Of a stretch of 64,000 nucleotides of DNA, positions 8,256 through 32,839 are shown one piece after another. Below the pieces are notes generated by a model that was not told where the DNA came from, ran no database searches, and saw only the letters and a program-made list of their open reading frames with translations. Within the stretch, counting starts at the first letter, position 1. Each line of letters starts with the position of its first letter. A program made the translations under genes and the position numbers. The DNA is from Trichlorobacter thiogenes. GTDB taxonomy: Bacteria > Desulfobacterota > Desulfuromonadia > Geobacterales > Pseudopelobacteraceae. The stretch spans positions 62,001 through 126,000 of the forward strand of contig NZ_FUWR01000010.1 of assembly GCF_900167465.1 (NCBI RefSeq). The letters run 5' to 3'.

Positions 8256-8273
8256 CCAGAGGAGGAATAACTG

Positions 8274-8504
8274 ATGAAGATTTTAATCCAGTACTGCGCA
8301 TCTTGAGGCCAGCAACAGATGGCGGCAGGTCTTGCCGCTGAACTTGAAAAAAACCTGGAAGATGTAATCGTTGAGATTGAGCGTGGTCCCAAGCAGAGTG
8401 AACTGGCGGTGCTGGTGGATGGCGAGCAGATCTTCTCCCGGCTGGAGCAGATGCGGTATCCGACGGTACCGGAGCTGATTGTGGCCTGCCGTAGCAGGCA
8501 GTAG
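8274..8504 (+). CDS. Selenoprotein W-like (Rdx family) protein, selenocysteine at an in-frame UGA
   Basis: Small thioredoxin-like redox protein of the SelW/SelT/Rdx type. From an ATG at 8274, eight bases after a strong AGAGGAGG ribosome site (8258-8265), the frame reads MKILIQYCAS, then UGA at 8304-8306, then GQQQMAAGLAAELEKN and on to TAG at 8502. This gives 76 residues with a C-x-x-U motif (Cys8, Sec11), matching the Rdx family active site, and the downstream residues fit the family (VLVDGEQIFSRL, YPTVPELI). A 6-bp hairpin with a GGTCT loop (8322-8338) lies 15 bases after the UGA, as in bacterial SECIS elements. Ordinary gene calling would report only a 61-residue stub starting at 8319. It sits 18 bases after the RND pump. 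The redox partner is unknown. Confidence 0.87.
8322..8338 (+). promoter_or_regulatory. Bacterial SECIS element for the SelW-like gene
   Basis: A perfect 6-bp stem (GCGGCA pairing with TGCCGC) closes a GGTCT loop. The loop begins 21 bases after the UGA at 8304-8306. The E. coli fdhF SECIS has the same GGUCU loop about 18 bases from its UGA (known from the literature). The hairpin lies in the coding region, as bacterial SECIS elements do. Confidence 0.85.
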
Positions 8505-28006: not shown

Positions 28007-28954
28007 ATGCTTAAACAGTTTGCCGATTACGTTACTTTCTCGCTTATTGGTCTCAAGCCAGGCAGCCATGGCGGTGAGGCCCTTGATTTCTTCATCTACG
28101 ACACTATCAAGATCTTCCTGCTGCTGACCACGATCATCTTTGTGGTGGCTATTATCCGCTCATCCTTTCCGCCGGAACGCACCAAACGGATCCTTTCCCA
28201 TAACCGCGAGTATGTTGGCAATGTCATGGCAGCCCTGCTGGGGATTGTTACGCCATTCTGTTCCTGCTCGGCAGTGCCGCTTTTTATCGGGTTTGTGGAG
28301 TCCGGTGTGCCGCTGGGGGTGACCTTCTCCTTTCTGGTCTCTTCACCCATGGTAAATGAGGTGGCTCTGATCATGCTTTGGGGGATGTTCGGCTGGAAGA
28401 TCGCCCTGATCTACATCGGCACCGGACTGCTGGTGGCGATTGTCTCCGGCATTGTGATCGGCAGGCTGAAGATGGAAAAGTATGTCCAGGATTATGTCTG
28501 GGAGATGCAGGTGGGACAGCAGGAGATCGAAGAACTGACCTTCCGTGACAAGCTGGTCTATGCCCGTGGCTACACCCGTGATCTGCTGAAAAAAATCTGG
28601 CCCTATGTGGTGATCGGGGTGGGGCTTGGGGCCTTCATCCACGGTTATGTGCCTCAGGATTTTCTGGCCAAATGGGCTGGTCGTGATAACCCGTTTGCAG
28701 TGCCAATTGCGGTTGCGTTGGGGGTGCCGCTTTATAGTAACGCAGCCGGGGTGATCCCGATCGTATCTGCCCTGACCCAAAAGGGGATGGCAATCGGCAC
28801 GGTGCTGGCCTTTATGATGGCGGTCACGGCTTTGTCACTGCCGGAGGCGATTATTTTGAGTAACGTGTTGAAGCGGAGGCTGTTGCTTACCTTCTTTGGT
28901 ATTGTGGCAACTGCCATCGTATTTGTCGGGTATCTGTTTAATATCATACTGTAA
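28007..28954 (+). CDS. ArsP-type permease (UPF0718/DUF318)
   Basis: Integral membrane permease of 315 residues with about eight helices. The conserved family loop TPFCSCSAVPLFIGFVESGVP, with a CSCS pair, is present, followed by FLVSSPMVNEVALIML. Some members export methylated or organic arsenicals (ArsP); others have no known substrate, so the symbol is left open. Arsenic link here: downstream ArsR, nearby ars/arr genes. The next gene is a small thioredoxin, a pairing often seen for this family. Confidence 0.85.
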   Translation: MLKQFADYVTFSLIGLKPGSHGGEALDFFIYDTIKIFLLLTTIIFVVAIIRSSFPPERTKRILSHNREYVGNVMAALLGIVTPFCSCSAVPLFIGFVESGVPLGVTFSFLVSSPMVNEVALIMLWGMFGWKIALIYIGTGLLVAIVSGIVIGRLKMEKYVQDYVWEMQVGQQEIEELTFRDKLVYARGYTRDLLKKIWPYVVIGVGLGAFIHGYVPQDFLAKWAGRDNPFAVPIAVALGVPLYSNAAGVIPIVSALTQKGMAIGTVLAFMMAVTALSLPEAIILSNVLKRRLLLTFFGIVATAIVFVGYLFNIIL

Positions 28955-28968
28955 AAGGAGTGGTCGTC

Positions 28969-29196
28969 ATGAAGCTTGAAGTGCTGGGCACCGGTTGTGC
29001 CAAGTGCAAGGCCCTGCTGGAAAATGTGAAGAAGGCGGTTGAGACCTCTGGCAAAGAGGCTGAGATCGTCAAGGTGGAAGATATCCCTTCCATCATGAAG
29101 TACGGCGTGATGAGTACCCCGGCCCTGGTGAAGGACGGCAAGGTGCTGTTCTCCGGCAAGCTGACCACGCCGGAAGAGATTGCGGGGATGCTCTGA
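28969..29196 (+). CDS. Small thioredoxin-like redox-active disulfide protein
   Basis: A 75-residue mini-thioredoxin (Trx-3 type) with a C-A-K-C active site in VLGTGCAKCKALLENV and a typical STPALVKDGKVLFSGK cis-Pro segment. It starts at ATG 28969, after AAAGGAG, 14 bases after the permease gene. Cytoplasmic, with no signal. It may reduce a cysteine pair of the ArsP-type permease or metal-thiol intermediates. Confidence 0.9.
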   Translation: MKLEVLGTGCAKCKALLENVKKAVETSGKEAEIVKVEDIPSIMKYGVMSTPALVKDGKVLFSGKLTTPEEIAGML

Positions 29197-30158
29197 TGTG
29201 TAGCCAACAGAAACAAAGCCTGCACCTGAGGGGATTTATCTCGCTCTTGACCGCACTAAGTTTTTTAATCATGACGGTATCAGGCATTATCCTGTTCATT
29301 ACTCCCCAGGGCAGGGTTGCCTACTGGCTGGACTGGACCTTCTGGGGGATCAGCAAGTCGCAGTGGGGTGACATGCATATCACCACCAGCCTGTTATTCG
29401 CCCTGGCCGGTCTGTGGCATACCTGGCTAAACTGGCGAGCACTGGTCAGTTACTTTCAGGATAAGGTGAAAAAAACAGTAGCTTTGAAGGTAGAGCTGGC
29501 GGTGGCAGCTGTGATCACCCTGTTTTGCACGGTGGGTGGCATCTATAAAACCCCTCCACTCAGCTATGTCCTTGAGTTTAACGACTGGATCAAGGATTCG
29601 TGGGTCAAAGGCCCCGATGATGAACCGATTATCAGCCATGCCGAGCTGCTGCCACTTAAAAACTTTTTACAAAAAACTGATATTGAATTGGAACCAGCAT
29701 TGGCAGAGCTTAAGAAACAGGGGATTGCGGTTAGCGGGCCTGATCAGAAGTTGCTTGATATCTCAAGGAACAATGGTAAATCGCCGGCAGCGATCTTTAA
29801 ATTGCTGAAGCATCTGGAAGGGAAAACATCAGCCCAAACGCCTGCTGTTCCTGTTGTGCAGCAGCCTTCGCCGGTATCACCAGTTATTCCGGCTGAAGCA
29901 AAGCAGACGCCAACAGCGCAGCTCTGGACCTCTGAGCAGGTGCAACAGCAGTTTGAAGGCAAGGGAGCGGGGCGCAAGACACTGGCTGCTATCTGTCTGG
30001 AGTACCATCTTGATCAGGCGGCAATTATCAAAAAGCTTGCAGCACGCAAAATCAGTGCAGCTCCGGATGATACCCTGAAAAAGATCGCTGAGGAGCGTGG
30101 AGAACTGCCGATTGAGGTTTTGAAGCTTGTTTTTGTTGGTGAAAAACGGTTGCCTTAA
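29196..30158 (+). CDS. DUF4405 membrane protein with repeated helical C-terminal modules
   Basis: 320 residues. The first 120 form about three to four helices with histidines (QWGDMHITTSLLFALAGLWHTWLNW), typical of DUF4405 membrane domains that may bind b-heme. The rest is hydrophilic and contains two similar modules: one ending LLDISRNNGKSPAAIFKLL (about 190-210) and one ending LKKIAEERGELPIEVLKLV (about 295-315), separated by a Pro/Thr/Gln-rich linker (about 215-245). It overlaps the mini-thioredoxin stop by one base. Function unknown; a quinone- or heme-linked redox role in the operon is possible. Confidence 0.75.
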   Translation: MCSQQKQSLHLRGFISLLTALSFLIMTVSGIILFITPQGRVAYWLDWTFWGISKSQWGDMHITTSLLFALAGLWHTWLNWRALVSYFQDKVKKTVALKVELAVAAVITLFCTVGGIYKTPPLSYVLEFNDWIKDSWVKGPDDEPIISHAELLPLKNFLQKTDIELEPALAELKKQGIAVSGPDQKLLDISRNNGKSPAAIFKLLKHLEGKTSAQTPAVPVVQQPSPVSPVIPAEAKQTPTAQLWTSEQVQQQFEGKGAGRKTLAAICLEYHLDQAAIIKKLAARKISAAPDDTLKKIAEERGELPIEVLKLVFVGEKRLP

Positions 30159-30182: not shown

Positions 30183-30638
30183 ATGCGGCGAACCATCATT
30201 CTTTTCCTACTTTTAGTTGGTCTTTCTGCTCTGCCGGTTTTTGCTGCTGAAGATACCTTTGATACGTTTTTAACCAAATTTGATTACGAAACCCGCGCCG
30301 ATATGAAGGCCAGCAGCAAACAGTTGATAAAAATGATTGAAGAGAAAAAGGCGGTGTTGGTGGATATCCGCTTTCCTGAAGAGGTCAAGGCCTGGCGGAT
30401 GGGCTTTGGCCTGTTTATTCCGCTCAATGAACTGCCCAAACGCTACAAAGAACTGCCCAAAGACAAGATCATCGTCACTGCCTGTCCCCACAAGGATCGC
30501 TCCTCAATTGCCATGGCCTATCTGCGCACCAAAGGGTACAATGCGCGCTATCTGACCGATGGCCTGACCGGTCTGGCCGAGGTGTTGCGCGGAGATGTCG
30601 CTAAAGAGTTTCGTGAGGATACCGGATGCTGCCCCTAG
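30183..30638 (+). CDS. Exported rhodanese-like protein
   Basis: Single-domain sulfurtransferase-like protein of 151 residues with a signal peptide (about 1-21, ending VFAA). The rhodanese domain shows AVLVDIRFPEE and the active loop IVTACPHKDRSSIAMAYL with the catalytic Cys. The C-terminus ends TGCCP, an extra pair of cysteines. Periplasmic location suggests persulfide or thiol chemistry beside metal export. It overlaps the following arsR by 13 bases. Confidence 0.87.
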   Translation: MRRTIILFLLLVGLSALPVFAAEDTFDTFLTKFDYETRADMKASSKQLIKMIEEKKAVLVDIRFPEEVKAWRMGFGLFIPLNELPKRYKELPKDKIIVTACPHKDRSSIAMAYLRTKGYNARYLTDGLTGLAEVLRGDVAKEFREDTGCCP

Positions 30639-30961
30639 AAAAGAATCAGGCAATTGATACGCTGGAATATAGCGCTGAAGTCCTCAAAGCGATTGCTCAG
30701 CCAACCCGTTTAAGGATCATTGAACTGCTGCGTGATGGCGAGCATTGTGTCTGCGAGATCTTTCCGGCCATTGGTCATGAGCAGTCCAATACCTCCCGTC
30801 ATCTGCAAACCATGCTGAAGAGCGGTATCCTTAACCAACGCAAGGATGGCCTGAAGATCTACTACTCCCTGCGGCACCCGGAGGTGCTGGAGATAGTACA
30901 GCTGGCCGGTCTGATTGCAGCCCATGAGGCAACAGAGCGGGCTGCCCGGTTTGCAAAGTAG
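30626..30961 (+). CDS. ArsR-family metalloregulator (second copy)
   Basis: Winged-helix repressor of 111 residues. The sensing segment EHCVCEIFPAIGHEQSNTSRHL has Cys41 and Cys43 in place of the ELCVCDL arsenite site, so As(III) or another soft metal is the likely ligand. It lies inside the operon that starts with the ArsP-type permease and may autoregulate it through the palindrome at 27956-27979. It is clearly different from the arsR at 20122. Confidence 0.9.
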   Translation: MLPLEKNQAIDTLEYSAEVLKAIAQPTRLRIIELLRDGEHCVCEIFPAIGHEQSNTSRHLQTMLKSGILNQRKDGLKIYYSLRHPEVLEIVQLAGLIAAHEATERAARFAK

Positions 30962-30979: not shown

Positions 30980-31636
30980 ATGACCAGAGAGCAGTGGTTA
31001 CAACGGGCAAACTGGCTGGCGCTGTTTACCATCTTCTACAACATTGCGGAAGGTGCCGGATCAGTCTGGTTTGGTCTGGCTGATGAGACCCTGTCGCTGT
31101 TCGGTTTCGGGATGGATTCCTTTATTGAGGTCATCTCGGCCGTGGGGGTCTGGCACATGCTGCGCAGGATCAGGCAGAATGGCGGTGAACAGCGGGATGA
31201 GTTTGAACAGCGTGCGCTCAGGATTACCGGTGCAGCCTTCTACCTGTTGACGGTCGGGCTGCTGCTGACTGCAGGCATCAACCTCTACAGTAGTCATAAA
31301 CCGGAGACAACGGTCTGGGGGATCATCATCTCCCTGATTTCAATCTCGTTCATGTGGTTCCTGATCCACCAGAAGAACAAGGTAGGGCATGCCCTGGAGT
31401 CACCGGCCATCCTTGCTGATGCAGCCTGCTCCCGTGCCTGTCTCTACCTTTCGGTGGTGCTGATGATTACCAGTGTCGGGTATGAGCTGACCGGGTTGGG
31501 CTGGCTGGATGCGATCGGAGCGCTTGGCATCGCCTGGCTGGCGTATAAAGAGGGGCGCGAGGCCTTTGGCAAGGCGAAAGGCCTCAGCTGCTCCTGCAGT
31601 TGTTCCTGTAGCTCTATTCGGGAGACTGGTTTGTGA
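30980..31636 (+). CDS. CDF-like cation transporter membrane domain with a Cys-rich tail
   Basis: 218 residues with six predicted helices and the cation-efflux fold (WLALFTIFYNIAEGAGSVWFGL, FGMDSFIEVISAVGVW, AILADAACSRACLYLSVVL). It lacks the C-terminal metal-sensing domain of full CDF proteins. It ends in alternating Ser-Cys repeats (LSCSCSCSCSS), a possible metal-binding tail. It overlaps the next gene, a full CDF transporter, by 4 bases (GTGA). Substrate unknown. Confidence 0.8.
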   Translation: MTREQWLQRANWLALFTIFYNIAEGAGSVWFGLADETLSLFGFGMDSFIEVISAVGVWHMLRRIRQNGGEQRDEFEQRALRITGAAFYLLTVGLLLTAGINLYSSHKPETTVWGIIISLISISFMWFLIHQKNKVGHALESPAILADAACSRACLYLSVVLMITSVGYELTGLGWLDAIGALGIAWLAYKEGREAFGKAKGLSCSCSCSCSSIRETGL

Positions 31637-32562
31637 CCTCACTGGATACCCGCATAACCGGCAAGTTTAAGATCGCCATTGCCCTGACTGCGGTAACCCT
31701 GGTAGCCGAGGTGGTGGGCGGTATCTGGACCAACTCACTGGCACTGCTGTCCGACGCGGCCCATGTCTTTCTGGACCTGTTTGCCCTTGTGCTCTCCCTT
31801 GCTGCCGTACAACTGGCCGGTCTGCCTACCTCGGAACGGCACACCTTCGGTTTTCATCGTTCAGAGGTTTTTGCCTCATTTATTAACGGTCTGACCGTTT
31901 TTCTGATGGGGGCGGGAATCCTGTACGAGGCCTGGGGCCGCTTTGCAGCGCCGCAGGCGGTCAAGAGCGGGCCGATGTTGCTGATTGCCCTGATCGGCCT
32001 GGTTATGAACCTGCTGGCCGCCAAGACCCTGCATAGCCACAGCCATGACGACCTGAATGTGAAGAGCGCCTTCTTGCATGTGGTGGGGGATGCGGCTGCA
32101 TCGGTGGGGGTGATCATCGGCGGGATCGTGATGTACTATACCGGCTGGTATCTGCTGGATGCGTTGCTGTCAGCCGCCATTGGCCTGCTGATCCTTGCCG
32201 GAGCGGGACGCCTGCTGCGGGATGCCACCCATATCCTGATGGAGGGCGCTCCTCGGGGGCTGGATCTGGCAGAGGTGGCAGAGGCCATCCGCGCTGTAGA
32301 AGGGGTGCGGGATCTGCACCACCTGAATGTCTGGTCGGTCTGTTCGCATATCACGGCGCTGTCTGTGCATGTTGAGGTCGCAGCAGGCTACGAAGATGGA
32401 CGGAGCGGTCTGCTGCATGAGATTGAACATGCCCTTGAACACCGTTTTCATATCACCCACACCACCATCCAGCTTGAGTGCAGTGACTGCAACGGTGGTC
32501 CACTGATCAAGCCGCTGCAGCATCGGCAACGACAGGAAGTGTGCTGTGGTCATGACCATTGA
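31633..32562 (+). CDS. Cation diffusion facilitator (CzcD/ZitB-like zinc exporter)
   Basis: Metal/proton antiporter of 309 residues, likely for Zn, Cd or Co. The metal site shows SLALLSDAAHVFLDLFAL in TM2 and the HVVGDAAASVGVII segment in TM5, both with the HxxxD-type pattern; a His-rich loop (HSHSHDD) lies between TM4 and TM5. A C-terminal cytoplasmic domain follows. The start is GTG at 31633. The C-terminal CCGHDH is an additional metal-binding tail. It is followed by the Bfd-like gene after 11 bases. Confidence 0.93.
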   Translation: MTSLDTRITGKFKIAIALTAVTLVAEVVGGIWTNSLALLSDAAHVFLDLFALVLSLAAVQLAGLPTSERHTFGFHRSEVFASFINGLTVFLMGAGILYEAWGRFAAPQAVKSGPMLLIALIGLVMNLLAAKTLHSHSHDDLNVKSAFLHVVGDAAASVGVIIGGIVMYYTGWYLLDALLSAAIGLLILAGAGRLLRDATHILMEGAPRGLDLAEVAEAIRAVEGVRDLHHLNVWSVCSHITALSVHVEVAAGYEDGRSGLLHEIEHALEHRFHITHTTIQLECSDCNGGPLIKPLQHRQRQEVCCGHDH

Positions 32563-32573
32563 GGTGGGCAATC

Positions 32574-32780
32574 ATGCATAATGACGAACTGGTCTGTTTT
32601 TGCAGCAAGGTAACTGCTGGCGCCATCCGGCAGGCTAAACGTGACGGTGCAACGACGATGGATGCAATCCGCCGCATGACCGGCGTCTGCACCGTCGGGC
32701 GCTGCAAAGAACTTTCACCTCGGGGCAGATGATGTGCCCAAGAGGTCAAGCAGGTGCTTGACGAAACGTGTAATCCTTGA
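32574..32780 (+). CDS. Bfd-like [2Fe-2S] protein, probable selenoprotein (in-frame UGA)
   Basis: From ATG 32574 (ribosome site GAGGTGG) the frame reads a Bfd-type [2Fe-2S] domain: VCFCSKVTAGAI with Cys8 and Cys10, and GVCTVGRCKELSPRGR with Cys39 and Cys44. UGA at 32730-32732 follows, then C-A-Q-E-V-K-Q-V-L-D-E-T-C-N-P and a final UGA at 32778. In relatives known to me this place reads GRCC..D/EV..LL, so the UGA falls exactly on a conserved cysteine and the following residues fit the family helix. A 7-bp SECIS-like hairpin lies 12 bases after the UGA. Total length 68 residues with Sec53. Without readthrough a 52-residue truncated protein results. Partner and target unknown; its operon suggests metal or thiol handling. 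Confidence 0.78.
32745..32762 (+). promoter_or_regulatory. SECIS-like hairpin in the Bfd-like gene
   Basis: GTCAAGC (32745-32751) pairs perfectly with GCTTGAC (32756-32762) around an AGGT loop. The loop begins 19 bases after the end of the UGA and has a G in its first two positions, which meets the published bacterial SECIS rules. The upper stem and loop share GCAGGT with the SECIS of the SelW-like gene at 8322. Confidence 0.72.
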
Positions 32781-32802: not shown

Positions 32803-32836
32803 CCTCCCTGAACAGTTATCTGTCAGGGAGGTTTTT
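32803..32836 (+). terminator. Terminator-like hairpin containing the queC ribosome site
   Basis: CCTCCCTGA (32803-32811) pairs with TCAGGGAGG (32823-32831), followed by five T. It ends four bases before the queC ATG at 32840. The right arm holds GGGAGG, the only Shine-Dalgarno for queC, so the same structure could end the upstream operon and mask or set queC translation. Confidence 0.7.
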
Positions 32837-32839
32837 GTT

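Follow-up and report, generated by a model that had tools for sequence, protein, structure and literature searches.

Comparative evidence puts it almost beyond doubt that bfdU, a short gene of Trichlorobacter thiogenes (genome 3.57 Mb), encodes a selenoprotein, and our computational analysis shows its in-frame UGA codon to be read as selenocysteine (Sec) under a SECIS hairpin 12 nt downstream. Within the window, the 64,000-nucleotide stretch of DNA analysed here, the frame opens at an ATG at 32574 and runs for 52 codons through 32729 to the UGA at 32730-32732; a further 15 codons (CAQEVKQVLDETCNP) precede a UGA stop at 32778-32780, giving the product MHNDELVCFCSKVTAGAIRQAKRDGATTMDAIRRMTGVCTVGRCKELSPRGRUCAQEVKQVLDETCNP. 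A sequence-only reading of this DNA had described a 52-codon Bfd-like frame that reaches UGA at the first Cys of a GRCC motif, and this is exact to the base. The product scores 32.0 bits against PF04324 Fer2_BFD (gathering cutoff 26), and the cutoff is also passed by the residues preceding the UGA alone and by the whole product with Cys at the UGA. The genome codes for SelB (331.5 bits, cutoff 242.25) and tRNA-Sec (76.2 bits, gathering cutoff 47). Feature coordinates are given in Table 1.

Table 1. Features of the bfdU operon (window coordinates).
Feature	Position	Strand	Basis or remark
ArsP_1 permease, SaoE / SO_0444-like	28007..28954	+	nearest models; below both NCBIfam cutoffs
MTH895/ArsE-family thioredoxin (CAKC)	28969..29196	+	TIGR00412 above cutoff
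DUF4405 membrane protein	29196..30158	+	
Rhodanese-domain protein	30183..30638	+	probable signal peptide inferred from sequence
ArsR/SmtB metalloregulator	30626..30961	+	
Cation-efflux-like membrane protein, Cys-rich C-terminus	30980..31636	+	
CDF cation exporter	31633..32562	+	TIGR01297, 258 bits
Probable ribosome-binding site, TGAGGTGGG	32560..32568	+	overlaps CDF gene stop; inferred from sequence
bfdU, 68-residue (2Fe-2S)-binding selenoprotein	32574..32780	+	Pfam match, relatives, structure prediction
Sec UGA codon (residue 53)	32730..32732	+	first position of GR(U/C)C motif
bSECIS hairpin GUCAAGC-AGGU-GCUUGAC, 7 bp	32745..32762	+	fold, covariation
Terminator-like hairpin, CCTCCCTGA...TCAGGGAGG then TTTTT	32803..32836	+	between bfdU and queC; inferred from sequence

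Of 76 genomes of the family searched for bfdU homologues, 12 have a gene interrupted by TGA at the Sec codon (T. thiogenes itself, ten others of the genus, and one of a neighbouring genus); homologues without an internal stop are present in other genomes, mainly of genus g4. In Geobacteraceae relatives the codon aligned with the UGA is TGC or TGT, giving GRCC rather than GRUC. All of the 12 closest members have TGA at the Sec codon, and all continue in frame into the same C-terminal helix, in agreement with the 15-codon continuation that the sequence-only reading had proposed. Among these 12, mean pairwise dN goes from 0.17 upstream of the UGA to 0.14 downstream of it, and mean pairwise dS from 1.37 to 0.62. 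All 12 share the same codons at +4 (GAG), +7 (CAG), +8 (GTG), and +9 (CTT), and synonymous sites are frozen across the hairpin; at upstream third positions about half differ per pair. This is the pattern expected of a coding region overlapped by an RNA element. The comparison with relatives that the same reading had proposed as a check thus finds Cys opposite the UGA in one group, and UGA and hairpin conserved in the other. The outcomes it had named beforehand as counting against Sec were absent: no relative was found that ends at the UGA position, the hairpin is kept, and constraint continues past the UGA.

The perfect 7-bp hairpin with an AGGT loop is likewise as first described, its first base lying exactly 12 nt past the UGA; 19 nt separate the UGA from the loop, which has G at its second position. 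With 7 bp, an AGGU loop, 19-nt spacing, and -9.0 kcal/mol, it fits the published bSECIS model. Folded alone, its energy of -9.0 kcal/mol corresponds to a z of -3.8, with 2 of 200 shuffles equally good, and the 51-nt context around it gives a z of -1.0, which is not unusual; fold energy alone is therefore weak, and the SECIS case rests on covariation together with synonymous constraint. As a measure of chance, the window contains 2542 TGA triplets, of which 19 (0.75%) precede a stem with 7 or more Watson-Crick pairs that conforms to the SECIS rule for the loop and to its spacing; with a tighter hairpin geometry the share is 0.12%.

In the 12 closest Sec members 98.8% of cells are paired, and the stem changes are G-C to A-U in L004 and L009, A-U to G-U in three members, and one break, in L003. 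Covariation within the genus alone is thin, with one compensatory pair and 16 of 500 shuffles scoring as high. A wider set of 22 Sec members is made up of the 12 closest and ten distinct sequences of a distant subfamily whose hairpin, of the type GUCCGCC-AGGU-GGUGGAC, has the same register as that of bfdU. Across both subfamilies 94.2% of cells are paired, and three pairs are changed on both sides in 22 cells, a count that exceeds the number of events, since the double changes mostly fall between two clades; there may be only one between-subfamily event per pair. The covariation score is 0.433 vs 0.185 in shuffles, none of 500 shuffles is as high, and no slid register matches it. Median best hairpin energies are -8.3 for 33 Sec members vs -3.4 for 23 Cys members, and the Cys versions are without the hairpin; some Sec members, such as L138, have weak ones. 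An Rfam scan of the window yielded no family reaching its gathering score, as expected for short and variable bSECIS elements. Our covariance model R1 is significant in the window only at the bfdU site (1.9e-09, for a training sequence), and it misses the hairpins of subfamily B, which lie ~8 nt further downstream. The window holds a second selenoprotein gene, a SelW-like gene at 8304 (about 8271-8504) with its CxxU motif as CASU; its hairpin has GGCAGGT and shares with that of bfdU the GCAGGT that had been noticed earlier.

The operon reads ArsP_1 permease, thioredoxin, DUF4405 protein, rhodanese, ArsR, two cation-efflux proteins, and bfdU, followed by a terminator-like hairpin and queC, which bears out the description of an operon of metal exporters, rhodanese, and thioredoxin. 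The loop of the terminator-like hairpin is too long for the hairpin scan that was run; its 3' arm and T-run (the whole spanning 32803-32839) end 3 nt before the queC ATG, and queC translation could also be affected by it. Among 20 loci outside the genus, an ArsP-like permease lies near the GxUC gene in 15, an ArsE-like thioredoxin in 15, and ArsR as well in 13; in six loci of the CYCFGYT type (L170-L175) no more than about 40 nt lie between the ArsP-like gene and the start of the GxUC gene. One locus (L180:4175-6700) is a mer-type cluster, ordered MerR-MerB-MerT-MerP-[GRUC protein]-MerF, in which MerB is a MerB-type lyase and the MerP-like protein passes NF041115, 'UxxU metal-binding (seleno)protein' (95.6, cutoff 95). 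Locus L176 is a relative of this cluster. Ars-type genes are absent from four outside loci (L176, L177, L179, and L180), and no metal gene was recognised among the nearby reading frames of L177 and L179. Taken together, the neighbourhoods suggest soft-metal or metalloid resistance as their common theme, and a protein that deals with toxic soft metals, for instance arsenic or mercury.

The nearest Pfam family is Fer2_BFD and the operon includes both a rhodanese and a thioredoxin, as would suit a general redox selenoprotein, a Bfd-like electron donor in iron release or in rhodanese/thioredoxin chemistry that is merely co-located with metal genes. We consider this unlikely, because ArsR, ArsP-like, and mer genes are co-located repeatedly with the family in distant genomes, which argues for a metal role. 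The product shares the fold and the N-terminal CxC with Bfd (6e6r, 4e6k); however, Bfd has a CxxC after the second helix, whereas bfdU has C39-x4-C44 plus U53-C54. No bacterioferritin gene was seen in the bfdU operon, and the Bfd combination of CxC plus CxxC with a bacterioferritin partner is not found here.

The AlphaFold model of the product has a pLDDT of 87.5, and its best Foldseek matches are Bfd 6e6r (TM 0.69) and 2hu9, the N-terminal domain of CopZ (rmsd 1.4 A), both with weak E-values near 0.01. This domain of Archaeoglobus fulgidus CopZ resembles bfdU in fold and in how CxC, C, and CC are spaced; A. fulgidus CopZ, in contrast, is not known to contain Sec, carries an additional part that binds Zn, and is a fusion with HMA. 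Alignment to 2hu9 sets C8, C10, C44, U53, and C54 opposite C75, C77, C109, C118, and C119, and we take the CopZ cluster ligands to be residues 75, 77, 109, and 119. The description of a Bfd/CopZ-N-like [2Fe-2S] protein with Sec in place of Cys stands. The paralogs L143 and L144 keep the four matching Cys (C8, C10, C44, and C54) but replace Sec by Ser or Thr, so that Sec53 more likely lies beside the [2Fe-2S] cluster than on it, an assignment made from conservation and the CopZ ligand pattern rather than from coordinates. C39 is near-invariant in bfdU's subfamily and could pair with Sec53. L143 and L144 (around 1501-1690) also have extra His/Cys-rich ends (HGQGCGCGHQHG, GCGCDHHHG).

We also consider it unlikely that Sec53 itself is a cluster ligand, which would make the protein a naturally selenolate-coordinated ferredoxin. 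Sec adjoins a conserved Cys in a CC pair aligned with C118/C119 of A. fulgidus CopZ, and a second catalogued form, described below, carries its Sec at the second position of such a pair, which would allow the two forms to differ in ligation; but L143 and L144 keep the second Cys while replacing Sec by Ser or Thr, and the four other conserved Cys suffice. We rejected, as having next to no probability, the default reading of UGA-32730 as an ordinary stop with a functional 52-residue Cys protein, even though those 52 residues alone match Fer2_BFD, because every member of the Sec group has TGA here where the other group encodes Cys, the sequence past it is conserved and under synonymous constraint, the hairpin covaries, and no relative was found to end at this codon.

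On balance, the product of bfdU is probably a small selenoprotein that stands alone, binds (2Fe-2S) in a Bfd/CopZ-N fold with a non-ligand Sec53, and acts in soft-metal or metalloid detoxification. With UGA-32730 decoded as Sec via the SECIS, in the mechanism we propose the [2Fe-2S] cluster would be held by C8, C10, C44, and C54, and Sec53, adjoining ligand C54, would provide a selenolate that does not coordinate the cluster. The protein may then take part in detoxification in one of two ways. It may capture the metal or metalloid at Sec53/C54/C39 and hand it over to the exporter, or it may mediate an exchange of electrons or thiols that links the cluster with the ArsE-type thioredoxin. The best reading is that of a ferredoxin-like partner of the exporter in soft-metal or redox handling, and we lean towards a U-C pair that handles metals or thiols rather than towards the supply of electrons.

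Beyond the genus, profile searches of a phylum sample and of viral contigs found 23 further short GxUC proteins, in Desulfobacterota and on three viral contigs. Nine (L133-L140 and L142) form a subfamily mostly with an AP-x-x-E leader, eleven (L145, L146, L148-L152, L156, L160, L178, and L180) belong to the CYCFGYT... subfamily, and three are on IMG/VR viral contigs (L128:4001-4201, L129:4001-4177, and L130:4001-4177) with hairpins of their own; the L129 gene adjoins a repressor-like gene and a restriction-like gene. Hairpins of these 23 vary in sequence and partly in place, and that of L128 again has an AGGU loop, on another stem (GATTAT/ATAATC). About four Sec/Cys changes are required to explain a tree with 34 Sec and 23 Cys rows, the alignment being short, many forks unresolved, and the root for drawing only. 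One genome carries a Cys paralog (GRCC) directly after an ArsP permease (L100:6785-6964, G061), with a Sec form ~8 kb on. Plasmid and phage collections gave no match, and neither the class nor a phylum sample yielded a full-length CopZ gene interrupted by UGA. The only other match in the T. thiogenes genome, L002 (E 0.19), was dropped as a paralog; it lies in a zinc-finger anti-sigma-like gene where the TGA occurs by chance.

The suggestion that Sec in this family might be undescribed did not hold. Reviews of 2022 and 2026 list a '(2Fe-2S)-binding protein (copper chaperone CopZ family) form 1' (WP_245779778.1, cd10141), with the motif GxUC in the 2026 table, and a form 2 with the motif CU; their entries for form 1 give no function (PMC9312934, PMC13188914). 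The main text of the 2008 paper cited for form 1 leaves it unmentioned. Like form 1, bfdU has a Fer2_BFD/CopZ-like domain and a GxUC motif (here GRUC), and, judged by motif and domain, it is probably form 1; that form 1 has the short architecture of bfdU is unproven but likely. Its CopZ-N similarity comes from the match to NF045877, the 2hu9 alignment, and Foldseek. NF045877 (CopZ_Nterm_CU, the Csac_0668 family, form 2) is itself a catalogued Sec/Cys family and aligns with bfdU over profile positions 97-159 of 161 (2e-11); however, bfdU, at 44.1 bits, stays below the 190-bit cutoff, has nothing to match the first ~95 positions at the N-terminus, and has UC where form 2 has CU. The related NCBIfam models reject the product by score. 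Selenoproteins also occur with SaoE in the Sao organometal systems (NF040736), and the operon permease matches SaoE (2e-40), but at 139 bits vs a cutoff of 325; other Sao components were not found in the window operon.

Our literature search, with most subscription papers outside its reach, found no reported function or operon association for GxUC proteins. The selenoprotein type is already catalogued, and the functional context that gene neighbours suggest for bfdU is putative. More tentatively, and at less than even likelihood, the short standalone GxUC proteins may constitute a distinct family of soft-metal-handling selenoferredoxins in arsenic- and mercury-type operons, in which a selenolate beside the [2Fe-2S] cluster would bind or reduce the metal, with both role and operon link previously undescribed. 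Gene callers stopping at the UGA would truncate bfdU to 52 residues, and the gene is therefore likely under-annotated. Its SECIS is clear, Geobacteraceae supply natural Cys counterparts, and its neighbours are consistently resistance genes of the arsenic or mercury type; bfdU turns a catalogue entry without a function into a testable system, a small and easily expressed protein with Sec beside a [2Fe-2S] cluster.
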